Source of the DNA: Comamonas testosteroni TK102
Lineage (GTDB): Bacteria > Pseudomonadota > Gammaproteobacteria > Burkholderiales > Burkholderiaceae_C
Length of the DNA stretch: 64,000 nucleotides
Assembly: GCF_000739375.1 (NCBI RefSeq)
Contig: NZ_CP006704.1
Span: 2,976,001-3,040,000 of the forward strand
Direction: 5' to 3'
The notes beneath the pieces are model-generated. The model had not been told where the DNA came from, did no database searches, and saw only the letters and a program-made list of their open reading frames with translations. A program made the translations under genes and the position numbers. Below are positions 47,449 to 63,299 of the stretch, in pieces. Within the stretch, counting starts at the first letter, position 1, and each line of letters opens with the position of its first letter.

Positions 47449-47628
47449 GGAAGGCAAGATTGAAGGGTGCGGCACCACGGTGCTCGCAATGCCAGTCTGC
47501 ACGTGGGTGTGGGGCGGCACGCGCCCAAGGGCGGTTGCGTGCCGCCTACAGCGCCAATGCCTTGCGGGCATTGGGAATACCGCGTGCCGCATCCGCTCAG
47601 GCGCGCTGGGCTTGTCTGGAGTCTCGCC

Positions 47629-49608
47629 ATGAGCAAGCGCAATTCTCCTGATGGAGATGACCGTTTCCACATACGGCCCGGCAAGCCCCGGCAGCGCGGT
47701 GACACCTTCATCGCGCAGGTACTGCGCCAGACCAGCAAGGCAGCAGGTACTACCGGAGGCCGTCGCAAAGCTGGCGGCAAAACCACTGGCAAAGCCCCTG
47801 GCTCGCGCCTGGGTCGAGGACATGTCGCGGCGCGTTTCACAGGCCAGTCGCTCACTGCCCATTCGCGCCGGGCCACGGTCAAGGTGCGGCTGGTGTATCT
47901 CCAGCAGGCCAGCGGCCGATCCACGGTGCAGCACCTGCGCTACATTGAGCGCGACGGTGTGGATCGCCAGGGCGGACAAGGCCGAGCCTATGGGGCCATC
48001 ACCGACGAGGCGGACACGGCCGCCTTCGAGGAACGCGGCCGGGGTGACCGCCACCAGTTCCGCTTCATCGTCTCGCCAGAGGATGCGGAGCAGCTCGAAG
48101 ACCTGCGCACCTACGCCCGGCACCTGATGCAGCGCATGGAAGCCGACCTGGGCACCCGGTTGGACTGGGTGGCGGTCGATCACTGGAACACCGACAACCC
48201 GCACACCCACGTCGTGCTGCGCGGCAAGGACGACACGGGCAAGGATCTCATCATCTCGCAGGAATACATCATTCGCGGCATGCGCGAGCGGGCGATGGAA
48301 CTGGCGACCGAATGGCTGGGGCCGCGCACCGAGTTGGAGATCCAGCGCAGCCTAGCCCGCGAGGTGGAGCAGGAGCGTTGGACTTCCCTGGATCGCACCT
48401 TGCAGCGCGAGGCGGTGGATGGGCTGGTGAAGACCGAACGGTTCAATGATCCCAAGCTGCAACGCCAGCGCCTGCTGCTGGTCGGTCGGCTGCAACGGCT
48501 TCAACGCATGGGGCTTGCCACGGAGACCCAGCCTGGTATGTGGGCCGTTCACGCCGAGGCTGAGCCCACTTTGCGGGCGATGGGCGAGCGCGGCGACATC
48601 ATCCGCACCATGCAGCGTGCCATGGGCGGCAAGCAGCGTGACCTGGCCGTGTTCCAGCCGGGCGAGGATGGGCACTCCATCGTCGGCCGCGTGGCGGGTA
48701 AGGGGCTGGCCGACGAGCTGTACGACCGGGGCTATCTGGTGGTCGATGGCATCGACGGCAAGGCCCACTATGTGGTGCTGCCGCCCAGGACGGAGCTGGA
48801 GCAATACCCCATGGGTGCAGTGGTCGAGGTGAAAGGCTCCGCAGAGATGCGCGCGGCGGACAAGAACATCGCCGCGCTGGCGAGCAACGGCCTGTATCGC
48901 ACCGACCATCACCTTGCGATTGCGCGGGGGCAAGCCAAGGATGGCCGAGACCCGCAGGAAGTGGTAGCGGCCCACGTTCGCCGGCTGGAAGCCCTGCGCC
49001 GAGCGGGCATTGTGGAGCGCGTGGCTGAGGGGTTGTGGAAGGTGCCGGACGATCTGCCCGAACGTGGCCGACAGTACAACGCGCAGCGCCTGGGCGGCGT
49101 GGCTGTTGAGCTGAAGTCGTACCTGCCTATCGAGCGGCAGGCCCGCGTGATCGGCGCCACCTGGCTCGACCAGCAGTTGATCGGCGGCGGCAAGGGGCTG
49201 GGCGACCTGGGCTTTGGCGGCGAGGCCAAGCAGGCGCTGCAGCAGCGCGCCGACTTCTTGGCCGAGCAGGGATTGGCCGAGCGGCGCGGGCGGCGCGTCA
49301 TCCTGGCGCGCAACCTGCTGGGGACGCTGCGTAACCGGGAACTGGCGCAGGCCGCCAAGGACATTACCGCCGAAACCGGCCTGGCACATCGCCCCACGGC
49401 CGATGGCCAGCGTGTGGCAGGCATCTATCGCCGCAATGTCATGCTCGCCAGTGGGCGCTACGCGATGCTGGACGACGGCACGGGGTTCAGCCTGGTGCCG
49501 TGGAAGCCAGTGATTGAGCAGCGGCTGGGGCAACCGCTTGCCGCGACTGTGCGTGGTGGTGGGGTGGCTTGGGAGATTGGGCGACAGCGGGGGCCGTCAG
49601 TGGTATAG
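47629..49608 (+). CDS. Relaxase / mobilization nuclease (DUF3363 type)
   Basis: 659 residues from the ATG at 47629. After a basic, disordered N-terminus comes the relaxase domain with HWNTDNPHTHVVLRG; the metal-binding histidines are at about 185, 192 and 194. The DUF3363 region follows (DRTLQREAVDGLVKTERFND, LVDGIDGKAHYV-like). It nicks oriT and pilots the single strand to the recipient. This matches the RlxS-type relaxase of Tn4371-like ICEs. No catalytic loss is seen. Confidence 0.92.
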   Translation: MSKRNSPDGDDRFHIRPGKPRQRGDTFIAQVLRQTSKAAGTTGGRRKAGGKTTGKAPGSRLGRGHVAARFTGQSLTAHSRRATVKVRLVYLQQASGRSTVQHLRYIERDGVDRQGGQGRAYGAITDEADTAAFEERGRGDRHQFRFIVSPEDAEQLEDLRTYARHLMQRMEADLGTRLDWVAVDHWNTDNPHTHVVLRGKDDTGKDLIISQEYIIRGMRERAMELATEWLGPRTELEIQRSLAREVEQERWTSLDRTLQREAVDGLVKTERFNDPKLQRQRLLLVGRLQRLQRMGLATETQPGMWAVHAEAEPTLRAMGERGDIIRTMQRAMGGKQRDLAVFQPGEDGHSIVGRVAGKGLADELYDRGYLVVDGIDGKAHYVVLPPRTELEQYPMGAVVEVKGSAEMRAADKNIAALASNGLYRTDHHLAIARGQAKDGRDPQEVVAAHVRRLEALRRAGIVERVAEGLWKVPDDLPERGRQYNAQRLGGVAVELKSYLPIERQARVIGATWLDQQLIGGGKGLGDLGFGGEAKQALQQRADFLAEQGLAERRGRRVILARNLLGTLRNRELAQAAKDITAETGLAHRPTADGQRVAGIYRRNVMLASGRYAMLDDGTGFSLVPWKPVIEQRLGQPLAATVRGGGVAWEIGRQRGPSVV

Positions 49609-49697
49609 ATCAGCGGTCATCCACCACAGCATAAGTGCATGGCTGATATGCATCTGTAGCTATATGTAGATGCCGCGCCAATCTTCACACTTCGTTC

Positions 49698-49715
49698 TGA
49701 GTTGAAGAACTCAGC
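49698..49715. repeat. Small hairpin upstream of the NTF2-like gene
   Basis: CTGAGTT-GAAG-AACTCAG, 7-bp perfect stem, in the 173-base gap after the relaxase gene. It may mark a terminator or an operator at the backbone/cargo boundary. Confidence 0.4.
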
Positions 49716-49781
49716 TAACCCCTCTGCCATCACCTTCTGTCGCGGACATGAGAGTGGCCTGTTTATACCGAGGATGAAACC

Positions 49782-50237
49782 ATGAGCATGATTTCTCGAA
49801 CCCATGGGTGCCTGTGCCTGCCTGCCTTGGCACTGGGCGCGCTGATCGCATTGCCCGCGCTGGCGGCCGGTGACGAGGATGCGGTTGCCGCCAAACTGGA
49901 GGAGTTCCGCAGTGCGCAGATGGCAGCCAATGCCGGCACCCTGACTGAGCTGACGGCGCCGGAACTCAGCTACAGCCATTCCGATGCGCGCGTGGAGGAC
50001 CGAGCAACCTTCGTGGCCAACACAACGTCGGGGAAAAAGCCTTTTCTGTCGCTGGAATACCGCGAGCCGACAATTCGCGTTGTTGGCAGCAACGCCATCG
50101 TGCGCTTTCATTGGATGGGTGAGCAGCAGGCAGTGGCCGATGGCAAGAAAACCGCCACCAATCTGCATATCCTGATGGTGTGGCAAAAGCAGGGCGGCGA
50201 CTGGAGGCTGCTGGCAAGAAGCGCAACAAAGCCTTAA
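49782..50237 (+). CDS. Secreted NTF2-like (DUF4440-type) protein
   Basis: The 151-residue protein has a signal peptide (LPALALGALIALPALAAG, cleavage near ALAA-GD). The following cone-fold domain reads AVAAKLEEFRSAQMAANAGT, LTELTAPELSYSHSDARVED, KPFLSLEYREPTIRV and LMVWQKQGGDWRLLARSAT. DUF4440-type proteins bind small ligands in varied pathways. It is at the left edge of the catabolic cargo, convergent with the LysR gene, and may belong to it as a periplasmic accessory. Function unproven. Confidence 0.75.
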   Translation: MSMISRTHGCLCLPALALGALIALPALAAGDEDAVAAKLEEFRSAQMAANAGTLTELTAPELSYSHSDARVEDRATFVANTTSGKKPFLSLEYREPTIRVVGSNAIVRFHWMGEQQAVADGKKTATNLHILMVWQKQGGDWRLLARSATKP

Positions 50238-50241
50238 TCAA

Positions 50242-51177
50242 TCAAGCCAAGCGCGCGCCTATCCACGCTCCCGACGTGACGAGGCCGCGCACTTCCTTGC
50301 GCACGGTTTGCGTGATTTCAAAGAGTTCGGGTATGGCGGGCCGATTGCGCGCTATGGCCAGCGAGATCTTGCGGGTCACCACCGGCTCGACCAGCTGTGC
50401 CGAATGCAGCCGGCCTTGTGCCACGCGGTCGGCCACCGCCGCGAATGGCAGAAGCGTGGCTCCGCAGCCGTCCTCGACCAAGCGCATGGAGACGGTGTTC
50501 GACGCATCGCACTCCAGCGCCATGTTCAGCGTGGCGCCGGTCCGCTCCGCCAGCGATTCGGCCAGCACGCGCAAGCCATGCTCGGTGCTGGGCAAGATCA
50601 TGGGAACCTCTCCCAGCTTGCCGACAGGAAACGTAGGGCCGATGTAGCTCCATGAAGCCGGAGTTACCAGCATCAGATCCTCCTCCAGTAGGACGTCCAG
50701 GCTCAGCCCGCTGTGTTGTTCGGGAGAATAGAGGAGCGCCATGTCCACCTCGCCCGAGGCCAGCCATCCCAAGATAGGGCCAGCCAGGCCCTCAACGAAT
50801 CGCAGCTTGGTGGCGGGAAAGCGTTGCTTGAGCGCTGCGCCGATCAAACCGAATGCCGTGGTAGCGATGGTGGGCTGAGCGGCGATCACCAGCTTTGCAG
50901 GCCCTTTGGCCATGCAGGTGCGCACCGCGTCGCAGGCCTCTGAGATCGTTGCAGCCACTTGCTGCGCGTAGCCGAGCAAGGTATTGCCAGCTTCGGTCAG
51001 CACGACGCCTCGGCCACTGCGACTGAATAGGCGGGTTTTTAGCGCCGTCTCCAGGCGTGAGATTTGCCGGCTGACCGTGGATTGGTCTGAGCCCAACTCC
51101 AGGGCCGCACGAGAGAAGCTGCCTGCGTTGGCAACACAGGTAAAGCAAGCCAAATCATCAGAGTTCAAAGGCGGCAT
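50242..51177 (-). CDS. LysR-family regulator of the catabolic cargo
   Basis: The 311-residue protein has an N-terminal wHTH (LACFTCVANAGSFSRAALEL, GSDQSTVSRQISRLETALKT) and a periplasmic-binding-like co-inducer domain (KLVIAAQPTIATTAFGLIG). It is the last gene of the minus-strand run (oxidase, aldehyde dehydrogenase, LysR), 38 bases after the dehydrogenase stop. It is thus probably co-transcribed with the genes it controls. The likely inducer is a 2-hydroxy acid or its 2-oxo product. Confidence 0.9.
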   Translation of the reverse strand: MPPLNSDDLACFTCVANAGSFSRAALELGSDQSTVSRQISRLETALKTRLFSRSGRGVVLTEAGNTLLGYAQQVAATISEACDAVRTCMAKGPAKLVIAAQPTIATTAFGLIGAALKQRFPATKLRFVEGLAGPILGWLASGEVDMALLYSPEQHSGLSLDVLLEEDLMLVTPASWSYIGPTFPVGKLGEVPMILPSTEHGLRVLAESLAERTGATLNMALECDASNTVSMRLVEDGCGATLLPFAAVADRVAQGRLHSAQLVEPVVTRKISLAIARNRPAIPELFEITQTVRKEVRGLVTSGAWIGARLA

Positions 51178-51215
51178 GGGCCTACTCTCGTGCGTGTGTG
51201 TCCATGCTCACTAGT

Positions 51216-52667
51216 CTAAGCCAGCGTGTACGCCGTCTTCACCGTGGTGAAGAACTCCTGCGCATACTTGCCCTGCTCGCGCGGGCCGTAGCTGCTGCCC
51301 TTGCGCCCGCCAAACGGCACGTGATAGTCCACGCCCGCCGTGGGCAGGTTCACCATCACCATGCCGGCCTGGCTGTGGCGCTTGAAGTGCGTGGCGTACT
51401 TGAGGCTGCTGGTGGCGATGCCGGCCGACAGGCCGAACTCGGTGTCGTTGGCCACGGCCAGCGCTTCCTCGTAGTCCTTGACGCGGATCACGCTGGCCAC
51501 GGGGCCGAAGATTTCCTCGCGGTTGATACGCATGGAGGGCGCGGTGTCGGCAAACAGCGCCGGCGCCATGAAGAAGCCCTCATGGCCGCTGCCCGTGTGG
51601 CAGGCGATGCGGCTACCGCCCGTGAGCAGCTGCGCGCCTTCAGCCTTGCCAATCTCGACATAGCTCAAATCCTGCTCCAGCTGCGCCTGGCTCACCACCG
51701 GCCCCATGTCGGTGCCTGCAGCCAGCGCCGCGCCCACCTTGATGGCCTCCACGCGGGCCTTGAGCGCTGCGACGAAGGCCGGGTAGATCTTGTCGGTGAC
51801 GATCATGCGGCTGGATGCCGTGCAGCGCTGGCCGGTGGAGTAAAAGCAGCTTTGCGCGGACAGCTCCACGGCCTGCTTGAGGTCGGCATCGTCGAGCACC
51901 ACCTGCGGATTCTTGCCGCCCATCTCCAGCTGGACTTTCTTTCCATTGGCGACACAAGCCGCCGCAATGCCACGGCCCACGCCAACCGAGCCGGTAAAGC
52001 TAATCGCCGCCACGCCGGGGTGATCGACCAGCGCTTCGCCGATCACACGCCCACGACCCATGACCAGATTGAACACCCCGGCCGGAATGCCCGAGTGGTG
52101 AATGATGTCGGCCAGCGCCCAGGCGCTGCCCGGCACCAGATCGGCGGGTTTGATGACCACGCAGTTGCCAAAGGCCAGCGCGGGCGCAATCTTCCACGCG
52201 GGAATCGCAATCGGGAAGTTCCACGGCGTAATCAGGCCGACTACGCCAATCGGTTCGCGCGTGATCTCCACGCCGATGCCAGGCCGCACCGAAGGCACCA
52301 TCTCGCCCGCAAGGCGCAGGCATTCACCGGCGAAGAACTTGAAGATCTGGCCGGCGCGCATGACTTCGCCAATCGCTTCGCCGCGCACCTTGCCTTCCTC
52401 GCGGGCCAGCAGCTCGCCCAGCTCTTCCTTACGGGTCAGGATTTCGGTGCCGATCTTGTCCAGCGCATCGGAACGGGCCTGGATGCCCGAGGCGCTCCAG
52501 GCGGGAAACGCAGCCACAGCGGCGGCCACAGCGGCATCCACGTCGGCTGCATCGCCCTGGGCGTACTCGCCGGCCACATCGGCCAAGTTGCTGGGGTTTA
52601 GGTTGGGCGCATAAGACTGGCCTGGTTTCCATTGGCCGTTGATCAGGTTGTGGTGCTTGGTGGTCAT
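51216..52667 (-). CDS. NAD(P)-dependent aldehyde dehydrogenase
   Basis: The 483-residue protein is a complete ALDH: TPWN at residues 147-150, Glu248 in QLEMGGKNP and the nucleophile Cys282 in FYSTGQRCTASSR. The C-terminal GGRKGSSYGPREQGKYAQ with EFFTTVKTAYT resembles 2,5-dioxovalerate (alpha-ketoglutarate semialdehyde) dehydrogenases. In this cluster it would oxidise the aldehyde released by the ThDP enzyme. A semialdehyde or an aromatic aldehyde would both fit the family. It lies 10 bases downstream of the FMN oxidase gene. Confidence 0.88.
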   Translation of the reverse strand: MTTKHHNLINGQWKPGQSYAPNLNPSNLADVAGEYAQGDAADVDAAVAAAVAAFPAWSASGIQARSDALDKIGTEILTRKEELGELLAREEGKVRGEAIGEVMRAGQIFKFFAGECLRLAGEMVPSVRPGIGVEITREPIGVVGLITPWNFPIAIPAWKIAPALAFGNCVVIKPADLVPGSAWALADIIHHSGIPAGVFNLVMGRGRVIGEALVDHPGVAAISFTGSVGVGRGIAAACVANGKKVQLEMGGKNPQVVLDDADLKQAVELSAQSCFYSTGQRCTASSRMIVTDKIYPAFVAALKARVEAIKVGAALAAGTDMGPVVSQAQLEQDLSYVEIGKAEGAQLLTGGSRIACHTGSGHEGFFMAPALFADTAPSMRINREEIFGPVASVIRVKDYEEALAVANDTEFGLSAGIATSSLKYATHFKRHSQAGMVMVNLPTAGVDYHVPFGGRKGSSYGPREQGKYAQEFFTTVKTAYTLA

Positions 52668-52677
52668 GGCTATCCAA

Positions 52678-53844
52678 TCAGGAAGTTGAACGGGGGGTGG
52701 GACGCAGCAGGCTGCGGTCTATGTCATCCAAACGATTTACGCCCAGCAGCGCCATGTCACGGTCTACTTCAGTGCGCAGGATGCCGATGGCATGGCGCAC
52801 GCCGGCACCGCCGGCCGTTGTCGCGGCGAAGTTGAACGAACGGCCGTTGAAAACGCATTGCGCGCCCAGGGCCATAGCTTTGAGCACGTCCGTGCCACGG
52901 CGAATGCCGCTGTCCATCATCACGGTGAGGTTCGGCGCCGCGTCCACGATCTCGGGGAGTACGTCCAGCGGAGACAGGGCGCCGTCGAGCTGGCGGCCGC
53001 CGTGGTTGCTGACGATGATGCCGTCGGCCCCGGCGTTCTGTGCGCGCAGCGCGTCTTCCTTGCGCATCACGCCCTTGACGATCAGCGGGCCTTTCCACTG
53101 GTTGCGCACCACCTTGAAATTTTCCCAGGACAAGTGGTCCCGTGCGACCATATCGCGCTGCACGTTGGCCGACAGGATTGGCGCCCCGCGCTCGGCGCGC
53201 CAGTTCTCGAAATGCGGCATGCCGTGCGAGAGCAGCGTGCGCCCGAAGGTGCCGAGCAGCCAGCGCGGATGGCTGATGCCGTCCCAAGCCAGCCGCACGC
53301 TGGGCTTCAGCGGCGTCGAAAAGCCGTTCTTGACATATCGCTCTGGATTTACCTGCACCGGCAAATCCACCGTGACCACCAGCGTCTTGAACCCTGCCGT
53401 GGCAATGCGGCGAATCAACTCGGCGATGCGCACGTCGTCGCCCGGTATGTAGGCCTGGAACCAGGTGTTCGGCGCGGCGGCAGCCACTTCCTCCATGCGA
53501 ATCAGCGACGCGCCACTCATGATGGCGGGCACATTGCTTTCCTGTGCTGCGCGCGCCAGCACGATGTCGCCGCGATAGCACCACATGGCCGCCAGCCCGA
53601 CCGGTGAGATGCCGAACGGCGAGGCATAGGACTGGCCGAACAGCGAGATCTCCTGCGAGCGCCGTTCCACGCCTTCCAGGATGCGGGGCGTGAATGCCCA
53701 GCGAGAGAAGGCCTCGCGGTTGAAACGCATCGACTGCTCGTCGTCTGCGCCATTGGCGATATAGCTGTAGAGCTGCCGGGGCAAGCGGGTTCGGGCGATG
53801 CGTTGGAAGTCGTCCAGGCAGTGGATGGTGTTTAGTTTGCTCAT
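52678..53844 (-). CDS. FMN-dependent L-2-hydroxy-acid oxidase/dehydrogenase
   Basis: The 388-residue TIM-barrel enzyme belongs to the lactate dehydrogenase (LldD), mandelate dehydrogenase (MdlB) and glycolate oxidase family. Motifs: LYSYIANGADDEQSMRFN at the N-terminus; SPVGLAAMWCYRGD; catalytic His281 and Arg284 in SNHGGRQLDG; and the phosphate site GIRRGTDVLKAMALGA. It oxidises an (S)-2-hydroxy acid to the 2-oxo acid. It is the first gene of the minus-strand run and starts 195 bases from the divergent ThDP enzyme gene. Confidence 0.9.
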   Translation of the reverse strand: MSKLNTIHCLDDFQRIARTRLPRQLYSYIANGADDEQSMRFNREAFSRWAFTPRILEGVERRSQEISLFGQSYASPFGISPVGLAAMWCYRGDIVLARAAQESNVPAIMSGASLIRMEEVAAAAPNTWFQAYIPGDDVRIAELIRRIATAGFKTLVVTVDLPVQVNPERYVKNGFSTPLKPSVRLAWDGISHPRWLLGTFGRTLLSHGMPHFENWRAERGAPILSANVQRDMVARDHLSWENFKVVRNQWKGPLIVKGVMRKEDALRAQNAGADGIIVSNHGGRQLDGALSPLDVLPEIVDAAPNLTVMMDSGIRRGTDVLKAMALGAQCVFNGRSFNFAATTAGGAGVRHAIGILRTEVDRDMALLGVNRLDDIDRSLLRPTPRSTS

Positions 53845-53950
53845 TTCTATAGCGTCTTGCGCCTGCTATGCAGGCCCTGCAGGCCAATATGCCGGAGATA
53901 GCGGATGCCGTCATGCTAGTGCTGCACGGTGGAAACCGCTGTGCATGTGG

Positions 53951-53967
53951 TGCATAGCTGGTATGCA
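53951..53967. promoter_or_regulatory. Perfect LysR-type operator dyad between divergent catabolic operons
   Basis: TGCATA-GCTGG-TATGCA is a perfect 6-5-6 inverted repeat that includes T-N11-A, the core pattern of LysR binding sites. A further half-site TGCAT lies 9 bases upstream (53942-53946). It sits in the 195-base gap between the FMN oxidase and ThDP enzyme starts and could control both directions. Confidence 0.65.
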
Positions 53968-54039
53968 TCGCGCCCGGTGTGGTCGCCGAAGCCATATCCT
54001 ACGCTTGTGGGTGTTTCCACAACAAACAGCCGATCCATC

Positions 54040-55704
54040 ATGAGTGATTCAATGAATGCTCCGAGCCGCACGGCCGGGCGCGCCCTGGTTGCCTCCCTGC
54101 GCACGCATGGCGTCGAGCGTGTCTTCTGCGTTCCGGGCGAAAGCTATCTCGAAGTCCTCGATGCCTTGTACGACGAAAAAAGCATCGAGCTCATCGTCGC
54201 CAAGCACGAGGGCGCAGCGGCCAACATGGCCGAGGCCGACGGCAAGCTGACCGGGCGGCCCGGCATCTGCATGGTCACGCGCGGCCCCGGCGCCACACAT
54301 GCCAGCATCGGGGTGCACATCGCGCAGCAGGATTCGACGCCAATGATTCTCTTCGTGGGCCAGATCGCCCGCGGGCACAAGGGCCGCGATGCGTTCCAGG
54401 AAGTGGACTACCAGCAGATGTTCGGCGGCATCGCCAAGCTGGTCATGGAAATCGACGATCCCGAGCGCATGCCCGAGCTGATGGCGAAGGCCTTCAATGC
54501 CGCCGTGGCCGGCCGGCCCGGCCCTGTGGTGGTGTCGCTGCCTGAGGACATGTTGACCGAGCAGACCACCGTGCCTGACTGCGCGCCGCTGACAATGCAG
54601 GCACCCGCCGTCAGCGAGGCTACTACGGAGGCAATCGCGCAAGCCCTGCGCGCGGCGCAGCGCCCGCTGGTCATCGTCGGCGGCAGTGACTGGTCCAACG
54701 AGGGTTGCGCCAGCCTGCGCGCATTTGTCGGGGCATGGAATCTGCCCGTGGCCTGCTCCTTTCGCCGCCAGGATGTGCTGGACAATACCAACGCCCAATA
54801 CATAGGGCACCTGAGCCTGGGCATGAATCCCGCGCTCAAGCGCATGGTGGCCGAGGCCGATGTGATCCTGGCCATCGGCACGCGGCTGGGCGATATCGCC
54901 ACCGACGCCTATACGCTGCTGAACGTGCCGCAGCCGAGGCAGCGGCTCATCCACTGCCACCGCGATGCGCGCGAACTCGGCCGGGTCTATCGGCCGAACA
55001 TCCCCGTCCAGGCCGATGCCTCGGTGCTGCTGCAGGAACTGAACGCCGCCGAGGCGCCCCGGGCTCCGGCCTGGAGCGGCTGGGCGGCGCAGGGGCGGGC
55101 CGCATTCGTGGCGTTCACGTCGGCACGCCCCGAGAACCCCGAGATTCGTGGCGTGGACCTGACCCAGGTCATGCTGCACCTGACCGAGACGCTACCGGAC
55201 AACGCTATCGTGACCAATGGTGCGGGCAACTACTCCGTCTGGTTGCACCGCTTCTACCAGTACCGCGCGCCGCGCACCGAACTGGCCACCACCTGCGGCT
55301 CCATGGGCTACGGTTTGCCGGCGGCCATTGCCGCAGCACTGCAACACAAGGACCGCCCCGTGGTGTGCGTGGCCGGCGATGGCTGCTTCATGATGTACCC
55401 GCAGGAGCTGGCGACTGCCGTGGAATACGGCGCCTCGCTCATCGTGCTGGTGGCCAACAATGGCATGTACGGAACCATCCGCATGCACCAGGAGCGTGAC
55501 TATCCGGGCCGCGTATCCGGCACGTCGCTCAAGGGCCCCGACTATCCCGCCCTGGCCCGATCTTTCGGCGCGCATGCCGAGCGCGTCACCACGGCCCAGG
55601 ACTTTCCCGCTGCATTCGCGCGGGCACGGGCCGCAGGCAGCGTCGCGCTCATCGAACTGGTGACCGACCCGCTGCAAATCACCCCCGACAAGCGCATGGC
55701 CTGA
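54040..55704 (+). CDS. Thiamine-diphosphate-dependent 2-oxo-acid decarboxylase/carboligase
   Basis: About 554 residues from ATG 54040 (ATG 54052 also possible). It has the three-domain acetolactate-synthase/benzoylformate-decarboxylase fold. Glu57 in KHEGAAANMAEADG activates ThDP. The cofactor motif starts GDGCFMMYPQELATA (446-) and ends NN at 473-474. The middle domain is the FAD-type fold seen in AHAS (DVILAIGTRLGD). In this context decarboxylation of a 2-oxo acid to an aldehyde is most likely, but carboligation is possible. It is the first gene of the plus-strand operon. Confidence 0.88.
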   Translation: MSDSMNAPSRTAGRALVASLRTHGVERVFCVPGESYLEVLDALYDEKSIELIVAKHEGAAANMAEADGKLTGRPGICMVTRGPGATHASIGVHIAQQDSTPMILFVGQIARGHKGRDAFQEVDYQQMFGGIAKLVMEIDDPERMPELMAKAFNAAVAGRPGPVVVSLPEDMLTEQTTVPDCAPLTMQAPAVSEATTEAIAQALRAAQRPLVIVGGSDWSNEGCASLRAFVGAWNLPVACSFRRQDVLDNTNAQYIGHLSLGMNPALKRMVAEADVILAIGTRLGDIATDAYTLLNVPQPRQRLIHCHRDARELGRVYRPNIPVQADASVLLQELNAAEAPRAPAWSGWAAQGRAAFVAFTSARPENPEIRGVDLTQVMLHLTETLPDNAIVTNGAGNYSVWLHRFYQYRAPRTELATTCGSMGYGLPAAIAAALQHKDRPVVCVAGDGCFMMYPQELATAVEYGASLIVLVANNGMYGTIRMHQERDYPGRVSGTSLKGPDYPALARSFGAHAERVTTAQDFPAAFARARAAGSVALIELVTDPLQITPDKRMA

Positions 55705-55748
55705 CCCATGACAGCCATCACGTCCATCACATCACAAAGGAGACTGCA

Positions 55749-56732
55749 ATGAAGTTCAACACCCGCACACTCACCCGCCGCTGTGCCATGGCCTGCCTGT
55801 TGGGCGCTGCCGTATCTGGCGCCTATGCGCAGACCTCCAATTGGCCCGACAGGCCGATCAAGATCATCGTGCCATTTGCGCCGGGCGGCGGCACGGATCA
55901 GGTCGCCCGTCTGGTGGCCGTCGAGATCTCTAAGGATCTAGGCCAGCCCGTCATCGTCGACAACAAGCCCGGCGCCGCTGGCAACCTGGGCGCCGACTTT
56001 GTTGCCAAGAGCGCACCTGACGGCTACACGCTGCTGTGGGGCACCGTGGGCACCCAAGCCATCAACCAGCTCGTGAGCAAGAAGCTGCCCTATGACGCGC
56101 AGAAGGACTTCAAGCCGGTTGCCATGGTGGCGACCTACCCGAATCTGCTGGTCGTGCCGATGTCCAGCCCCGCCAAGAGCGTGGCTGACCTGGTGGCGAT
56201 GGGCAAGAGCAAAGACCTGACCTATGCGTCCTCAGGCGTGGGCACATCGTTGCACCTGTCCGGCGCCATGCTCGCCGTGCAATCCGGGCTGAACATGACG
56301 CACATCCCCTACAAGGGTAGCTCGCAAGCGATGACCGACGTGATCGGCGGTCAGGTGGACATGATCTTCGACAACATGCCGGTGGCCTACACCATGGCCA
56401 AGGGCAACAAGGTGCGGCCACTGGCGGTGACTGGCACTAAGCGCTTTCCGCTGTTGCCCGAGGTGCCCACCATGTTGGAGTTGGGCTACAAGAACTTCGT
56501 GACCGAGTCCTGGAACGGCCTGCTGGCCCCTGCGGGCACGCCGGATGCGGTTGTGCAAAAGCTTGATGCCGCCGTCAAGAAGACCGTCATGGCCAACAGC
56601 TTTGCGGACAAGTTGCTGCAGGCTGGCATCGAGCGCAGCTACAAGGACTCGGCTGAATTCGCCAAGTACATCCGGGCGGAGTACGTTCAGTGGCGCACCT
56701 TCATCCAAGTCAACCGTATCAGTGTGGACTAA
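55749..56732 (+). CDS. Bug-type (tripartite tricarboxylate) periplasmic solute-binding protein
   Basis: The 327-residue protein has a signal peptide (cleavage near AYAQ-TSNW) and the Bug fold motifs: WPDRPIKIIVPFAPGGGTDQ, VIVDNKPGAAGNLGADFVAK, TYASSGVGTSLHLSGAMLA and THIPYKGSSQAMTDVIGGQV. Bug proteins bind small carboxylic acids for TctAB permeases. No tctA/tctB gene is present here, so it must share a chromosomal permease or act as a sensor. It most likely captures the pathway substrate. Confidence 0.92.
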   Translation: MKFNTRTLTRRCAMACLLGAAVSGAYAQTSNWPDRPIKIIVPFAPGGGTDQVARLVAVEISKDLGQPVIVDNKPGAAGNLGADFVAKSAPDGYTLLWGTVGTQAINQLVSKKLPYDAQKDFKPVAMVATYPNLLVVPMSSPAKSVADLVAMGKSKDLTYASSGVGTSLHLSGAMLAVQSGLNMTHIPYKGSSQAMTDVIGGQVDMIFDNMPVAYTMAKGNKVRPLAVTGTKRFPLLPEVPTMLELGYKNFVTESWNGLLAPAGTPDAVVQKLDAAVKKTVMANSFADKLLQAGIERSYKDSAEFAKYIRAEYVQWRTFIQVNRISVD

Positions 56733-56737
56733 ACGAC

Positions 56738-58144
56738 ATGAACACGATTGCCACACGACTGGTTGAAGCGCTTGGCCAGGACCGCGTATTGACGAGTGCC
56801 GACGACGTTGCCCCCTGGCTGTCCGACTGGCGCGGCCTTTACCGGGGTCAGGCTCAGGCCGTGGTACGGCCGCGCACGGTGGACGAGGTATCGCGCTGCC
56901 TGGCGCTGTGCAACGAAACCGGCACGCCGGTCGTGCCGCGCGGTGGCAACACCGGGCTGTGCGGCGGCGCCGCCCCCGATGGCGAGGGGCGCAGCATCGT
57001 CCTGAGCTTGGACCGGATGAACGCCATTCGCTCGCTCGACACCGTAGGCAACACACTGGTTGCCGAGGCGGGCTGCATCCTCGGCAACCTGCGTCGAGCC
57101 GCGCAGGACGCGGGGCGGCTGCTGCCGCTGAGCCTGGGCGCTGAGGATTCGTGCCAGATCGGCGGCAACCTTGCCACCAATGCGGGTGGCGTCAACGTCG
57201 TGCGCTTCGGCATGGCGCGCGAACTGGTGCTTGGCATCGAGGCGGTGTTGCCGTCGGGTGAAGTCTTTCACGGCCTGCGCACGCTGCGCAAGGACAACAC
57301 CGGCTACGACCTCAAGCAGATGTTCATCGGCGCGGAGGGCACGCTGGGCGTGATCACTGCTGCATCGCTGCGCCTGTTTGCGCGAGCCGACACGCGCTCG
57401 GTCGTGCTTGCAGGAGTGGAATCCTCCGTGCAGGCGTTGGCACTCTACGAACTGCTGTTCCAGCGCTGCGGGCCTAGGCTGCAGGCCTTCGAATTCTTCA
57501 CGGGCGAATGCCTGGGGCTGGTGCTGGAGACGACCGAAGGCGTGCAAGACCCGTTCGAGCGACGCTATCCGGCCTATGTGCTGGTCGAGTTTGCCGACAC
57601 CACCGACGAGGCCGGACTGGAAGCCCTGCTCGAATCCGTGATGGAGGCCGCGCTGGAGCAAGCGTTGTGCCTGGATGCCGTAGTGTCGGCATCTTTGGCG
57701 CAGCTCAATGGCCTGTGGCGGCTGCGCGAGGAAATCCCCGAGGCGCAGCGTGTCAACGGAGCGCATTTGAAGCATGACATCTCGCTACCGATCGAGAAGC
57801 TTCCAGAGTTCATGACAACGATGGAGACACGGCTGCAGTCTCTATGTCCTGGGGTAAGGCTGTTTGTCTTCGGGCATTTCGGCGATGGAAATCTGCACTA
57901 CAACCTGTCGCGCCCGCTGGGTGCGGCGGAGGATTGGGCAAGCACCCAGGGCCATGATCTGACCGATGCGGTGCTGGAGCAGGTGATGCAGTTCGGCGGC
58001 AGCATCAGTGCGGAGCATGGCATCGGCCAGCTCAAGCGCCATGCCTTTCTCCAGTACAAGGCCCCGCTGGACCTGCAGCTGATGCGCGCCGTGAAGGCGG
58101 TGTTCGACCCTGCCGGAATTATGAACCCTGGAAAGTTGCTGTAA
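56738..58144 (+). CDS. FAD-linked D-2-hydroxy-acid dehydrogenase (GlcD / D2HGDH type)
   Basis: 468 residues from the ATG at 56738, 5 bases after the Bug stop. The VAO-type FAD domain has VVPRGGNTGLCGGAAP and GGNLATNAGGVNVVRFGMA. The C-terminal cap has HLKHDISLP, the metal-binding FVFGHFGDGNLHYNL and GGSISAEHGIGQLKR. This subgroup oxidises D-2-hydroxy acids such as D-lactate, D-2-hydroxyglutarate or (R)-mandelate and passes electrons to ETF. The etfBA genes directly follow, supporting that electron path. Confidence 0.9.
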   Translation: MNTIATRLVEALGQDRVLTSADDVAPWLSDWRGLYRGQAQAVVRPRTVDEVSRCLALCNETGTPVVPRGGNTGLCGGAAPDGEGRSIVLSLDRMNAIRSLDTVGNTLVAEAGCILGNLRRAAQDAGRLLPLSLGAEDSCQIGGNLATNAGGVNVVRFGMARELVLGIEAVLPSGEVFHGLRTLRKDNTGYDLKQMFIGAEGTLGVITAASLRLFARADTRSVVLAGVESSVQALALYELLFQRCGPRLQAFEFFTGECLGLVLETTEGVQDPFERRYPAYVLVEFADTTDEAGLEALLESVMEAALEQALCLDAVVSASLAQLNGLWRLREEIPEAQRVNGAHLKHDISLPIEKLPEFMTTMETRLQSLCPGVRLFVFGHFGDGNLHYNLSRPLGAAEDWASTQGHDLTDAVLEQVMQFGGSISAEHGIGQLKRHAFLQYKAPLDLQLMRAVKAVFDPAGIMNPGKLL

Positions 58145-58171
58145 GGCACTTTGAGTACGAGAGAGGTTGAA

Positions 58172-58921
58172 ATGAAGATTCTTGTAACGGTGAAGCGGGT
58201 GGTGGACTACAACGTCAAGGTGCGTGTGAAGTCCGACGGCAGCGGCGTGGACATCGCCAACGTCAAGATGAGCATGAACCCCTTCGACGAAATCGCCGTG
58301 GAAGAGGCCGTGCGCCTGAAGGAAAAAGGCGTGGTCACCGAAGTGATCGCCGTCTCCTGCGGCGTGGCCCAGTGCCAGGAAACGCTGCGCACTGCCATGG
58401 CCATCGGCGCCGACCGCGGCATCCTGGTCGAAACCACCGAAGAACTGCAGCCGCTGGCCGTGGCCAAGCTGCTCAAGGCCCTGATCGACAAAGAGCAGCC
58501 CGGCCTCGTCATCCTCGGCAAGCAGGCCATCGACGACGACTGCAACCAGACCGGCCAGATGCTGGCCGCGCTGGCCGACCTGCCGCAAGCCACCTTCGCC
58601 TCCAAGGTCGAAGTGGCGGGTGACAAGGTGGCCGTGACCCGCGAAGTGGACGGCGGCCTCGAAACCATCAACCTGAGCCTGCCCGCCGTGATCACCACCG
58701 ACCTGCGCCTGAACGAGCCGCGCTACGTCACGCTGCCCAACATCATGAAGGCCAAGAAGAAGCAGCTCGACACCTTCAAGCCCGAAGATCTGGGCGTGGA
58801 TGTGGCCCCCTGCATCAAGACCCTCAAGGTCTCCGAGCCGCCCAAGCGCGGCGCCGGCATCAAGGTGCCTGATGTGGCCACCCTGATCGACAAGCTCAAG
58901 AACGAAGCCAAGGTCATCTAA
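58172..58921 (+). CDS. etfB: Electron transfer flavoprotein, beta subunit
   Basis: 249 residues from ATG 58172, 27 bases after the dehydrogenase. Typical start [23 protein letters not shown]-binding region [29 protein letters not shown] and [18 protein letters not shown]; the recognition loop region [17 protein letters not shown]. With EtfA it carries electrons from the FAD dehydrogenase to ETF:quinone oxidoreductase. A dedicated pair on the ICE makes the cargo more self-sufficient. Confidence 0.95.
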
Positions 58922-58956
58922 GGCCCCCGCACAACAAGAACACGAAGGACACGAAC

Positions 58957-59889
58957 ATGACCGCACTCGTTATTGCAGACCACGACAACGCCAGCATCAA
59001 AAGCGCCACCCTCAACGCCGTGACGGCCGCCAAGGCCTGCGGCGGTGACGTGCATGTGCTCGTCGCCGGCGAAGGCGCCGGCGGCGCCGCTACAGCCGCC
59101 GCGCAGATCGCCGGTGTTGCCAAAGTCATCCACGCCGATGGCGCGAGCCTGAAGAACGGCTTGGCCGAGAACGTCGCCGCCCAGGTGCTGACCATCGCTG
59201 GCAACTACAGCCACATCCTGTTCCCCGCCACCGCCGGCGGCAAGAACGTGGCGCCCCGCGTGGCCGCCAAGCTCGACGTCGCCCAGATCAGCGACATCAC
59301 CAAGGTCGACGGCCCCGACACCTTCGAGCGCCCCATCTACGCCGGCAACGCCATCGCCACCGTGCAATCGGGCGACGCCACCAAGGTCATCACCGTGCGC
59401 GGCACCGGCTTCGACGCCGCAGCCGCCACCGGCGGCAGCGCTGCCGTCGAGACCGTTGCCGCCGCAGCCGATTCCGGCAAGAGCAGCTTCGTGGGCTCCG
59501 AGATCGTCAAGAGCGACCGTCCCGAACTGACGGCCGCCAAGATCATCGTCTCGGGCGGCCGCGCGCTGGGCAGCGAAGAGAAGTTCAAGGAAGTCATCAC
59601 CCCGCTGGCCGACAAGCTGGGCGCCGCCATCGGTGCCAGCCGCGCCGCGGTGGACGCGGGCTACGCCCCCAACGACCTGCAGGTGGGCCAGACCGGCAAG
59701 ATCGTGGCGCCGCAGCTGTACATCGCCTGCGGCATCTCGGGCGCCATCCAGCACCTGGCCGGCATGAAGGACTCCAAGGTGATCGTGGCGATCAACAAGG
59801 ACCCCGAGGCACCGATCTTCTCGGTGGCCGACTACGGCCTGGAAGCCGACCTGTTCGAGGCAGTGCCGGAACTGATCAAGATGCTCTGA
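58957..59889 (+). CDS. etfA: Electron transfer flavoprotein, alpha subunit
   Basis: The 310-residue protein has the C-terminal FAD domain: [80 protein letters not shown]. The N-terminal domain ([20 protein letters not shown]) pairs with EtfB. Third base usage is very strongly G/C, as in etfB. It is co-transcribed with the FAD dehydrogenase and followed 12 bases later by a LysR gene. Confidence 0.95.
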
Positions 59890-59901
59890 GTGCACTCAGG
59901 T

Positions 59902-60816
59902 ATGGAGTTCAGGCATCTCCGCTACTTTCTCGCGGTTGCCGAAGAACTTCACTTCGCCAGAGCCGCCGCCCGGCTGCACATCGACCAATCGCCGCTGTCA
60001 CGCTCCATCAAGGAGCTGGAGGATGAGCTGGGCTCGCAACTCTTCACCCGCACCACACGCAGTACCCAGTTGACCCGCGCCGGCAGGGTATTTCTGGAGC
60101 GGGTGCCGCGCATCTTCACGGCCTTGGAACAGGCGCGCGATGGGGTGAAGTCGGCCGCCAACGGCTTTCACGGGCAGTTGCGCATTGCCTTGTCCGACGG
60201 CATCACGCCGTCGCGGTTACCGGCATTGCTCGCGCGAAGCCGAGAGGAAGAGCCCGAGGTGGAAATCCGGCTCTTTGAAGTGCCCCTGGATCAGCAAATC
60301 AGGGGCTTGCATGACGATCAGTACGACGCCGGCTTCTCGATGGCCAATGAGGTCGGCGATGGCATTGCGGCCATTCCAGCCTGGGAGGACGAGCTGATGG
60401 TGGCCTTGTCTTCGCGCCACCCCTTGCTGGAGTACCGGCGCATTCCGCTGGAGATCGTGTTGCAGCACCGGCTGGTGTTGGGCGACCCTGCTTTTTGCCA
60501 GGGGCATACCCGTCAGGTAGATCGCATCCTGCAGAAGCGGGATGAGGAGTTGCAGATCCTCCAGCGCGTCGCCACCTTCGACGTGATGATGGCCCTGGTG
60601 TCCGCCGGGCTGGCGGTGGGTCTGGCAGGTGCCGCGCACATTGCATCCAGCCGCGAACCTGGGGTACTGGCCCGGCCACTGGCGGGCACGCCACCGATGC
60701 TGGCCACGTACCTGCTGCGCCGCGATGCGGAGCCGTCCCCGATGCTGGTCCGTTTCATCGAGCGGGTCGCCTCCATTGATTCGGGCAGTGGCGATACCGC
60801 TGCCGATGATTCATGA
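59902..60816 (+). CDS. LysR-family regulator next to the transfer genes
   Basis: 304 residues from ATG 59902. [43 protein letters not shown]. The effector domain follows ([20 protein letters not shown]). It is the BenM/CatR-like branch by its start. In Tn4371-type ICEs a LysR gene lies in the transfer region near traG, so this may be backbone rather than part of the catabolic cargo, although it follows etfA by 12 bases. It could link transfer to metabolite sensing. Confidence 0.88.
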
Positions 60817-61134: not shown

Positions 61135-61167
61135 ACGCCGCAGAGCGCTCGCGCCTGCGGCGTTTTT
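61135..61167 (+). terminator. Rho-independent terminator after eexN
   Basis: Perfect 9-bp stem ACGCCGCAG / CTGCGGCGT with an 11-nt loop and TTTTT. It separates the cargo/eexN transcript from traG. Confidence 0.9.
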
Positions 61168-61301: not shown

Positions 61302-63299
61302 ATGCAAGGTACGAACGTGCTGTTCGGCCAGATCGCCGTCGTGTTCGGCATCGTGATCGCCGGCGTGTGGAGCGCCACGCAGTGGACTGCCGCCGCCCTG
61401 GGCTATCAGCTACGCTTGGGCTCGCCCTGGTTCGACTTCTTCGGCACGCCGGTCTATCACCCCTGGCGCTTGTTCGAGTGGTGGTTTTTCTTCGACGCCT
61501 ACGCACCGCGTGTCTTCGACATCGGTGGTGCGATTGCCGGCGGCAGCGGCCTGGTGGCCGTGCTGGTCGCCATCGGCATGTCCATCTGGCGCTCGCGGCA
61601 ATCGAAGCTGGTCACGACCTACGGTTCCGCGCGCTGGGCCAATGCGGAGGACATTCACAAGGCAGGCCTTGACCAGCCTGCGGGCGTGTTCCTCGGCCTG
61701 CATCGCCAGCAGTACCTGCGGCACGAAGGCCCGGAACACGTCCTGACCTTCGCGCCTACGCGCTCCGGCAAGGGCGTGGGCCTGGTGGTGCCTACGCTGC
61801 TTTCGTGGCCCGCATCCGCCGTTGTCCACGACATCAAAGGCGAGAATTGGAGCATCACCGCGGGCTGGCGGTCGCGCTTCTCGCACTGCCTGCTGTTCAA
61901 CCCCACCGATGCGAACTCGGCGGCCTACAACCCGCTGCTGGAAGTCCGGCGCGGCGCGCATGAAGTGCGCGACGTGCAGAACATCGCGGACATCCTGGTC
62001 GATCCCGAAGGCGCGCTGGAGCGGCGCAACCACTGGGAAAAGACCAGCCACGCGCTGCTGGTTGGGGCCATCCTGCATGTGCTCTACGCGGGCGAGGACA
62101 AGACGCTGCGCGGCGTCGCCAATTTCCTCTCCGATCCGGCCTGCCCCTTCGAGCTGACCCTGCACCGGATGATGACCACGCCACATCTCGGCGATGGGCC
62201 GCATCCAGTCGTGGCCTCCGCTGCGCGCGAAGTGCTCAACAAGAGCGACAACGAACGCTCAGGCGTGTTGAGCACCGCCATGTCGTTCCTCGGCCTGTAC
62301 CGCGATCCCACGGTGGCCGAAGTCACGTCGCGTTGCGACTGGCGCATCGCCGATCTGATCGCGGCCGAGCATCCGGTGTCGCTGTACCTCGTGGTGCCGC
62401 CTTCTGACATTTCTCGGACGAAGCCGCTCATCCGCCTGATCCTCAACCAGATCGGGCGACGCCTGACGGAATCGCTGGACGGCAGCGACGGTATTGCCCG
62501 CCGCCACAAGCTGCTGCTGATGCTCGACGAGTTCCCGGCACTCGGGCGGCTGGACTTCTTCGAGACGGCGCTGGCCTTTATGGCGGGCTACGGCATCCGC
62601 AGCTTCCTGATCGCGCAGAGCCTGAACCAGATCGACAAAGCCTACGGCCAGAACCATTCGATCCTGGACAACTGCCATGTGCGCGTGACCTTTGCGACTA
62701 ACGACGAGCGCACCGCCAAGCGCATTTCCGAGACGCTGGGCACCGCCACCGAATTGCGCGCGCAGCGCAACTATGCGGGCCACCGGCTTGCGCCATGGTT
62801 GGGACACCTGATGGTGTCGCGCCAGGAGACGGCACGCCCGCTACTGACGCCCGGCGAAGTGATGCAACTCCCGCCGGACGAGGCCGTGGTGATGGTGTCC
62901 AGCGTGGCACCGATCAAGGCCAAGAAGCTACGCTACTACGCCGACAGCAATTTCAAGCGGCGCGTGCTCCCGCCTCCTACGCTCGCCGCCGGGCTCTACG
63001 CCGATGCGCCGCCAACGCGGCCCGACGACTGGAGCGGCCTGGCGATTCCCGCTGTTCCTGCGGCGCCGGCCACTGAAGCCGTCGAAGGCATCGGCAGTGC
63101 CGATGACGGCGGCCCGCGCCGTCAGCCCGAGCTTTCCGAAGTCACCGAGTACCACCTGGAACAGGAATTCGCAGCCACCGACCTCGCGCTGCTCGATGAC
63201 GACGACACGCCGCTTCCCCTTCCGCGCCAGCTCGACCCGGCCCTGCAGCGCACAGCCCGGCTGGCATCCCTCGACCCCAACGACGGAATCGACCTATGA
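61302..63299 (+). CDS. traG: Type IV coupling protein TraG/VirD4
   Basis: 665 residues from the ATG at 61302, preceded by GGGAGG; an upstream ATG at 61251 lacks a good site. Two N-terminal membrane helices flank a short loop. The ATPase domain has Walker A FAPTRSGKGVGLVVPTLL (Lys157), LLLMLDEFPALGRLDFFE (Walker B) and FLIAQSLNQIDKAYG. The coupling protein brings the relaxosome to the secretion channel. The C-terminal 80 residues are acidic and Pro-rich. Its stop overlaps the next start (ATGA). Confidence 0.95.
   Translation: MQGTNVLFGQIAVVFGIVIAGVWSATQWTAAALGYQLRLGSPWFDFFGTPVYHPWRLFEWWFFFDAYAPRVFDIGGAIAGGSGLVAVLVAIGMSIWRSRQSKLVTTYGSARWANAEDIHKAGLDQPAGVFLGLHRQQYLRHEGPEHVLTFAPTRSGKGVGLVVPTLLSWPASAVVHDIKGENWSITAGWRSRFSHCLLFNPTDANSAAYNPLLEVRRGAHEVRDVQNIADILVDPEGALERRNHWEKTSHALLVGAILHVLYAGEDKTLRGVANFLSDPACPFELTLHRMMTTPHLGDGPHPVVASAAREVLNKSDNERSGVLSTAMSFLGLYRDPTVAEVTSRCDWRIADLIAAEHPVSLYLVVPPSDISRTKPLIRLILNQIGRRLTESLDGSDGIARRHKLLLMLDEFPALGRLDFFETALAFMAGYGIRSFLIAQSLNQIDKAYGQNHSILDNCHVRVTFATNDERTAKRISETLGTATELRAQRNYAGHRLAPWLGHLMVSRQETARPLLTPGEVMQLPPDEAVVMVSSVAPIKAKKLRYYADSNFKRRVLPPPTLAAGLYADAPPTRPDDWSGLAIPAVPAAPATEAVEGIGSADDGGPRRQPELSEVTEYHLEQEFAATDLALLDDDDTPLPLPRQLDPALQRTARLASLDPNDGIDL

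Follow-up and report, generated by a model that had tools for sequence, protein, structure and literature searches.

The 64,000-nucleotide stretch of Comamonas testosteroni TK102 DNA examined here, which we call the window (contig NZ_CP006704.1, positions 2,976,001 to 3,040,000), carries a compact set of catabolic genes inside an integrative and conjugative element (ICE), and it raises the question of which compound these genes serve to consume. An earlier note on this DNA proposed a pathway for both enantiomers of a 2-hydroxy acid, equipped with its own electron-transfer flavoprotein (ETF), and held both aromatic and 2-hydroxyglutarate-like substrates to be open. Our tentative answer is that the cassette, as cargo of a Tn4371-family ICE, may serve the catabolism of a 2-hydroxy dicarboxylic acid of the 2-hydroxyglutarate type. 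With moderate confidence, a hydroxy diacid appears likelier as the substrate than an aromatic acid, because the enzyme resembling D-2-hydroxyglutarate dehydrogenase (D2HGDH) keeps Lys401 and Asn443 (human numbering), because FMN enzymes of a clade near, but not nearest to, that of the window's flavin mononucleotide (FMN) enzyme are encoded behind glaH, and because a gabD-like gene lies beside a relative of the gene for the thiamine diphosphate (ThDP) enzyme.

In the pathway that we propose, the solute-binding protein TctC would bind the substrate outside the cell. One enantiomer would be a substrate of the FMN enzyme and its mirror image a substrate of the D2HGDH-type enzyme. Both oxidations would yield one 2-oxo diacid, which the ThDP enzyme would decarboxylate to a semialdehyde and the aldehyde dehydrogenase (ALDH) would oxidize to the next shorter diacid. 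For 2-hydroxyglutarate itself, this predicted route would lead from 2-oxoglutarate through succinic semialdehyde to succinate. The electrons of the D enzyme could pass to the adjacent, ICE-derived ETF. Each of these steps, like the substrate, co-transcription with traR and the mobility of the element, is a prediction; the gene content, the ICE slot, the cargo borders, the origin of etfBA-traR and the residue patterns can be read from the sequence itself.

The cargo slot of a Tn4371-family ICE

The relevant genes are arranged as follows (window coordinates; strand as + or −).

25818-27044, +, ICE integrase (PF00589)
47467-49608, +, relaxase TraI, DUF3363 (PF11843)
49782-50237, +, DUF4440 protein with an apparent signal peptide, at the left cargo edge (Pfam PF14534; also in locus L009)
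50242-51177, −, LysR1 regulator (Pfam); LysR1-like genes lie near the ThDP gene in many compared loci
51216-52667, −, aldehyde dehydrogenase, GucD/2,5-dioxovalerate dehydrogenase-like (NCBIfam NF042993, 525 bits, cut-off 770)
52678-53844, −, FMN-dependent 2-hydroxy acid dehydrogenase-type enzyme of a Pro-for-Arg clade (PF01070, 413 bits)
54040 (likely start, read from the translation)-55704, +, ThDP-dependent enzyme of the PRK08199 subfamily (NF006052, 820 bits, cut-off 539)
55749-56732, +, TctC (Bug) type solute-binding protein (PF03401)
56738 (likely start)-58144, +, D2HGDH-type (GlcD/D2HGDH) flavin adenine dinucleotide (FAD) enzyme (profile and PDB matches, residue pattern)
58172-58921, +, EtfB of the ICE etfBA-traR block (similarity to L069, L151, L152 and L155 begins at 58172)
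58957-59889, +, EtfA of the same block (94% amino acid identity to the ICE of genome G245)
59902-60816, +, LysR2, identified as TraR (72-84% amino acid identity in 32 of the 33 loci given, several of which overlap; PMC11448139)
60813-61073, +, EexN-family lipoprotein (NF033894, 43 bits, cut-off 33)
61302-63299, +, TraG coupling protein (PF02534)

All the cargo genes named in the earlier note for 50242-60816 are intact open reading frames (ORFs), in place and in their broad families, as judged from ORF translations and from Pfam and NCBIfam matches. To that account of families and positions we add the tctC gene, which it omitted, and the identity of the last LysR gene, which it did not see as traR. 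LysR1 is likely the regulator of the ThDP and FMN genes. The location on an ICE is likewise upheld, as the integrase, ParA-like and ParB-like genes of the backbone, the relaxase and TraG are all detected by Pfam; genes resembling those of a type IV secretion system lie beyond the window end (L148; by inspection only). No convincing pair of attachment-site direct repeats was found for the ICE ends. By its gene order, the cassette is placed as the cargo of a Tn4371-family ICE, in the slot between traI and traG. The complete 6.06 Mb host genome holds at least three copies of the Tn4371-type backbone, near 2.20, 3.04 and 3.50 Mb, and the further copies lie at 2,201-2,205 kb and 3,499-3,508 kb (L069).

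We place the imported cargo at about 49630-58171, because similarity to a metagenome-assembled genome (MAG) begins at 49630 and similarity to the ICE block at 58172. Two contigs of this MAG, SZAS CTRL-40 LIN-147, repeat the gene content and gene order at 87% DNA identity: L009 matches 49630-55313, and L010 matches 50482-57506, where the contig ends. On L009 the block adjoins a PpiD-type gene (ppiD), with tRNA-His and an integrase gene on the far side, and because of these neighbors the MAG copy, within the reach of this contig, appears to lie outside a Tn4371 ICE. Six cargo genes compared with the MAG relative bear the mark of purifying selection (dN/dS 0.06-0.17).

Spread of the cargo on other elements was not seen, because the ThDP gene occurs at 88% identity or more in only 2 of 399 family genomes (its own and G355, probably the MAG) and the plasmid records that cover 80% of 52678-58144 number zero. 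The expectation that the gene set recurs elsewhere is borne out by L009/L010 and, as a looser set of GlcD, FMN and ThDP genes, by L021; the 399 genomes and the plasmid records revealed no second ICE that carries this cargo. Literature searches on the cargo gene set found no paper.

Evidence on the substrate

The D2HGDH-type enzyme matches PDB entry 3pm9, which we take to be a Rhodopseudomonas-type structure, at 414 bits and human D2HGDH at 298 bits, and it stays under the cut-off of the GlcD profile (249 of 568 bits). In an alignment with the human enzyme it has R, P, K, F, H, H, N, E and H at positions 386, 390, 401, 432, 434, 441, 443, 475 and 476. The residues for Zn and for C1 and C2 of the substrate (Arg386, His434, His441, Glu475 and His476) are therefore all present, and the earlier assignment as a GlcD/D2HGDH-type dehydrogenase holds for the broad family. 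At the positions for the C5-carboxyl group, Lys401 and Asn443 are kept, and residues 390 and 432 are Pro and Phe. In human D2HGDH, Thr390, Lys401, Tyr432 and Asn443 bind this carboxyl, and they are replaced in GlcD and in D-lactate dehydrogenases except yeast DLD2/3 (PMC7801405); Pro at 390 is common to the window enzyme and yeast DLD2/3. A chromosomal paralogue in the host (L078) carries the same letters at the D2HGDH positions. A separate line links the FMN enzyme to a D2HGDH-type gene, as GlcD-type genes lie beside the FMN gene in L021 and L022. In a small tree, for which the bootstrap had not settled, these genes group with L078 (91/100) rather than with their counterpart in the window; because of this grouping, the pairing of GlcD and FMN genes may have arisen more than once.

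The FMN enzyme belongs to the FMN_dh fold family, and the earlier description of it as an (S)-2-hydroxy acid oxidase holds for the family and for the 2-hydroxy-acid dehydrogenase type. The oxidation itself is not secure, since one of seven conserved residues is absent. The position concerned corresponds to R165 in mandelate dehydrogenase and R164 in glycolate oxidase. The letters NPE stand at this position in 17 of 57 FMN loci on genome contigs (by alignment; the count takes NPE anywhere in the matched stretch), while most other rows retain the Arg and His takes its place in three (L054, L063 and L064). A tree of 33 rows unites its 14 NPE rows in one clade with full support. A ThDP gene (above 50% identity over more than 200 amino acids) accompanies 12 of the 17 NPE-clade loci versus none of the 40 others; where at least 5 kb is available on both sides, the figures are 9 of 10 versus 0 of 32, among loci that are related to each other.

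A dicarboxylic context for this enzyme family comes from plasmids. The gene glaH lies directly upstream of the FMN gene in 7 of 12 plasmid loci, whose FMN enzymes are 58-59% identical to that of the window (hits H43-H49, which are L082, L160, L163 and L181-L184; L082 and L163 are one plasmid line), and the GlaH of L160 scores above its cut-off. The glaH-FMN pair (FMN enzyme 55-56% identical) also occurs in the host chromosome (L186, 4,577,935-4,580,218) and in one congener (L187); CsiD/GlaH is above cut-off in 2 of 200 family genomes. In Escherichia coli the order is glaH-lhgD-gabD, and lhgD holds the place of the FMN gene behind glaH. In L186, L187, L082, L160, L163 and L181-L184 the FMN gene comes after glaH, and those of these loci that are annotated lack lhgD. 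This context points to an FMN enzyme as a stand-in for LhgD, and the enzyme behind glaH may be an unrecognized L-2-hydroxyglutarate-oxidizing enzyme.

Other neighbors of FMN genes differ. In L020 the FMN gene is followed by a galactarate dehydratase gene (864 bits, cut-off 731), and relatives of that type, identified by likeness, lie beside it in L016-L019, these loci coming from several Alcaligenaceae; an aldarate link of the FMN clade is possible. The host also carries a paralogous cluster (L076, 1,714-1,724 kb) with a ThDP enzyme (52%), an FMN enzyme (45%), a mandelate racemase/muconate cycloisomerase-type enzyme, TctC, an ALDH, ferredoxin- and reductase-like genes and an iron-containing redox enzyme (Haem_oxygenas_2). 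Its pattern of GC content at third codon positions is weaker than in most regions compared alongside.

The ThDP enzyme scores above the cut-off of PRK08199 (820 versus 539 bits), a subfamily that has no assigned reaction in NCBIfam. In glyoxylate carboligase (Gcl), Val replaces the catalytic Glu of such enzymes. The window enzyme has Glu where E. coli Gcl has Val, and in the tree it stands apart from Gcl, oxalyl-CoA decarboxylase, IlvI and Xsc (reference branches are long). Identity as a glyoxylate carboligase is rejected on both grounds, and the protein is probably a 2-oxo acid decarboxylase.

The ThDP gene has relatives at 56% identity or more in 13 other family genomes, and the loci of 10 were read. 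The ThDP gene of locus L013 adjoins a GabD-like fragment that has 63% identity to E. coli GabD across 327 amino acids. ALDHs annotated or placed as the NADP type lie near the ThDP gene in L014, L172 and L085; those of L014 and L085 are far under the cut-offs for alpha-ketoglutaric semialdehyde dehydrogenase (KGSADH), with 92 and 119 bits at best. GucD-like ALDHs are found near the ThDP gene in L068 and about 7 kb off in L081, and in Alcaligenaceae dihydrodipicolinate synthase-type genes are near it. The window ALDH is 85% identical to two host paralogues and 62% identical to the ALDH of the glaH-FMN cluster L082; its earlier likening to semialdehyde dehydrogenases is retained as a GucD-like assignment that lies below the curated threshold. 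The thread through these neighborhoods would be the semialdehydes of small diacids. The pathway that we propose would tie both PRK08199 and the odd FMN clade to the use of hydroxy diacids.

Several observations weigh against a dicarboxylic substrate. The conserved active-site Arg is Pro in the window FMN enzyme, which keeps six of the seven conserved residues, and one or more of the seven was absent from 8 of 10 inactive family members (PMC8491902). No glaH match occurs in any of the 57 genome-contig FMN loci, nor in 5 of the 12 plasmid loci (L066, L080, L086, L161 and L162), of which L066 and L086 belong to the window's own clade. The glaH-linked rows in the tree (L082 and L160) are not the nearest sister of the window clade, a place taken by the glaH-free L024, L028, L033, L034 and L036, and the glaH-linked FMN enzymes read (L082, L160, L186 and L187) retain the Arg. 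An assignment of L-2-hydroxyglutarate to the window FMN enzyme from glaH alone is weakened by the lost Arg, the 57 glaH-free loci and this placement. The identical D2HGDH residues of the host paralogue leave the uptake of a second copy unexplained. The GabD-like piece of L013 ends at a contig end and reaches 502 of 646 bits, under the curated cut-offs, and the window ALDH, at 525 of 770 bits, is under that for KGSADH (GucD). TctA and TctB are not in the cargo. Finally, 9 of the 10 further ThDP loci have no FMN gene, the exception being L165, which is L021; the source of the 2-oxo acid must therefore often be a different one, which would suit a central acid such as 2-oxoglutarate.

These observations leave room for other explanations. 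It is unlikely, yet deserves the most attention among them, that the island is a composite, in which the FMN, ThDP, ALDH and TctC genes form one pathway and the D2HGDH-type gene another (e.g. the clearing of D-2-hydroxyglutarate), joined by chance. A GlcD-type gene is found in only 3 of the 17 FMN-clade loci, one of them the MAG copy of the cargo, and the GlcD genes of L021 and L022 are of a different line. However, these two are separate neighborhoods, the gaps between the ThDP, TctC and GlcD genes are short, and the MAG has the same order, with a dN/dS of 0.06 over the 255 GlcD codons compared.

A mandelate-type pathway, in which an aryl or arylalkyl 2-hydroxy acid would be converted to the 2-oxo acid, the aldehyde and the acid, is also rather improbable. 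It draws on the FMN enzyme, whose best solved relative is (S)-mandelate dehydrogenase (6bfg, 255 bits) and which, in our reading of the alignment, shares the long loop 4 of that enzyme; bacterial relatives with this long loop are active on mandelate (PMC8491902). The mandelate racemase/muconate cycloisomerase-type gene of L076 would fit as well. The remaining enzymes speak for something else: the D2HGDH-type enzyme retains two residues for a second carboxylate, the ALDH scores highest with 2,5-dioxovalerate types (525 bits) and much lower with phenylacetaldehyde types (363 bits), and, for the ThDP enzyme, the 60 best of 150 PDB matches include no benzoylformate decarboxylase.

Still less probable is a sulfolactate-type route. 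In C3-sulfonate degradation, 3-sulfolactate is oxidized to sulfopyruvate, which is converted to sulfoacetaldehyde; this is turned into sulfoacetate or handled by Xsc, and the cargo would supply the oxidation of both enantiomers. Given the likeness of sulfolactate to malate, a sulfonate could fit into the Lys/Asn pocket, and TctC is present. A gene for a TSUP-family transporter adjoins the ThDP gene in L066 (annotated); others are separated from the FMN gene by about 2 kb (L017, from a reading of the sequence) and by about 5 kb (L025, 51% identical to that of L066). The host has xsc (1022 bits, cut-off 676), but elsewhere in the genome; the cargo has neither a sulfonate gene nor a TSUP gene, the ThDP enzyme, with a best stretch of 156 bits, is no Xsc, and no Xsc-labeled gene occurs among the 25 loci compared. 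A glycolate route ending in glyoxylate carboligase is highly improbable: both GlcD-type and FMN enzymes can make glyoxylate, but the ThDP enzyme has the catalytic Glu and a clade apart from Gcl, no tartronate semialdehyde reductase is among the named cargo genes, and Lys401 and Asn443 are kept, unlike in GlcD.

We therefore continue to favor a hydroxy diacid, with the choice that the earlier note held open now leaning to the dicarboxylic side by the D2HGDH-type residues and the gene context. Since the host chromosome provides a D2HGDH-like gene and a glaH-FMN pair in any case, the cargo may serve a compound closely related to 2-hydroxyglutarate rather than 2-hydroxyglutarate itself. Of the two-enantiomer pathway on an ICE, the gene kit and the logic hold; its ETF is borrowed from the ICE, and a wide spread was not found.

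Origin of the ETF genes and the traR end of the cargo

The ETF genes can be traced by comparing the traR-traG regions of related elements. DNA of this region was matched in 65 of the 399 family genomes, some matches covering traG only, and in the 30 saved loci (L118-L147, the window's own included; L145 has a traR fragment only) etfBA precedes traR in 12. For other ICEs that carry an ETF, ten regions upstream of it were compared, namely L069 and L151-L159, of which eight belong to loci among the 12 and several are near-identical to each other. All 10 have an acyl-CoA dehydrogenase-type gene of 593-594 amino acids before etfB, assigned by Pfam for L069 and by likeness for the other nine; in L151 one MaoC-looking gene intervenes. 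In the L069 ICE, the acyl-CoA dehydrogenase gene and a gene like those of the major facilitator superfamily precede etfBA-traR. The closest relative of the window's block is that of G245 (L151), with 95% amino acid identity for EtfB, 94% for EtfA and 84% for TraR. Similarity of the window DNA to L069, L151, L152 and L155 begins at 58172, which is the ATG of etfB.

Because etfBA-traR is shared with the acyl-CoA dehydrogenase ICEs and similarity begins at etfB, these comparisons assign etfBA to the ICE's own etfBA-traR block, which came with the ICE and was not imported with the cargo. The claim that the pathway has its own ETF is thus not sustained, and an ETF acting as its dedicated partner is rejected by origin; at least five further etfBA copies occur in the host. 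Four copies lie outside its two ICEs (L070, L073, L074 and L075), that of L074 near transposase-like genes and that of L070 adjoining an ORF of 1161 amino acids. The D2HGDH-type enzyme may still use the ICE ETF, because ETF genes are among the frequent neighbors of d2hgdh genes (PMC8651671).

The last LysR gene is identified as traR, the activator of ICE transfer, and not as a regulator of the cargo, because its place, direction and sequence all fit traR. In 30 of 32 such ICEs, the genes of accessory region 3 are directed toward traR, and in ICEKKS102Tn4677 induction of the cargo was shown to raise traR and ICE transfer (PMC11448139). In the window, the ThDP, TctC, GlcD, etfBA, traR and eexN genes share one strand, with no terminator-like site predicted from the ThDP gene to traR; the next such site on this strand is at 61151, 5′ of traG, and the scan yields no more sites than shuffled sequence. 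By analogy, substrate induction of the cargo could also switch on traR and ICE transfer.

A broader proposal, which we regard as possible but doubtful, joins two ideas. The Pro-type FMN clade would be an undescribed enzyme type that pairs with the PRK08199 ThDP enzyme as a dehydrogenase-decarboxylase for hydroxy diacids, and etfBA-traR would be an exchange platform of Tn4371 ICEs, on which the D2HGDH-type gene took the place that an acyl-CoA dehydrogenase gene has in the 10 other regions, beside etfB or one gene before it. If so, an ETF-dependent dehydrogenase cargo that lands before etfBA-traR would gain an electron acceptor and a transfer switch together. The manner in which Tn4371 ICEs change their cargo has been termed ‘totally unknown’ (PMC11448139), and the main text of that report has zero matches to ‘etf’; PMC8627217 contains both ‘Tn4371’ and ‘electron transfer flavoprotein’. 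The window would offer a testable case, since one cargo border falls on the ATG of etfB and the MAG shows related cargo outside any recognizable ICE.

Comparison with known systems

The mandelate (mdl) pathway of Pseudomonas combines two-enantiomer logic with an FMN dehydrogenase, a ThDP decarboxylase and an ALDH. The cargo has the same logic and the same enzyme types, whereas the second enantiomer is handled by a racemase there and would be handled here by a D2HGDH-type FAD enzyme, with a probable diacid as the substrate. With the E. coli glaH-lhgD-gabD genes the proposed pathway would share the step from L-2-hydroxyglutarate to 2-oxoglutarate, with a succinic semialdehyde dehydrogenase at hand. 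There the enzyme is LhgD, which the FMN enzyme replaces in the glaH-linked relatives; the cargo adds a ThDP step and a D enzyme and has no glaH.

Human and bacterial D2HGDH (PMC7801405, PMC8651671) have the same catalytic residues, Lys401 and Asn443 as the window enzyme, which differs from them in Pro at 390, in Phe at 432 and in an ETF that derives from the ICE. As for the element itself, ICEKKS102Tn4677 and other Tn4371-family ICEs have the same order of traI, cargo, traR and traG, with the cargo directed toward traR (PMC11448139); the cargo there is bph, whereas here it is the hydroxy-acid cassette, and here etfBA lies between the cargo and traR.

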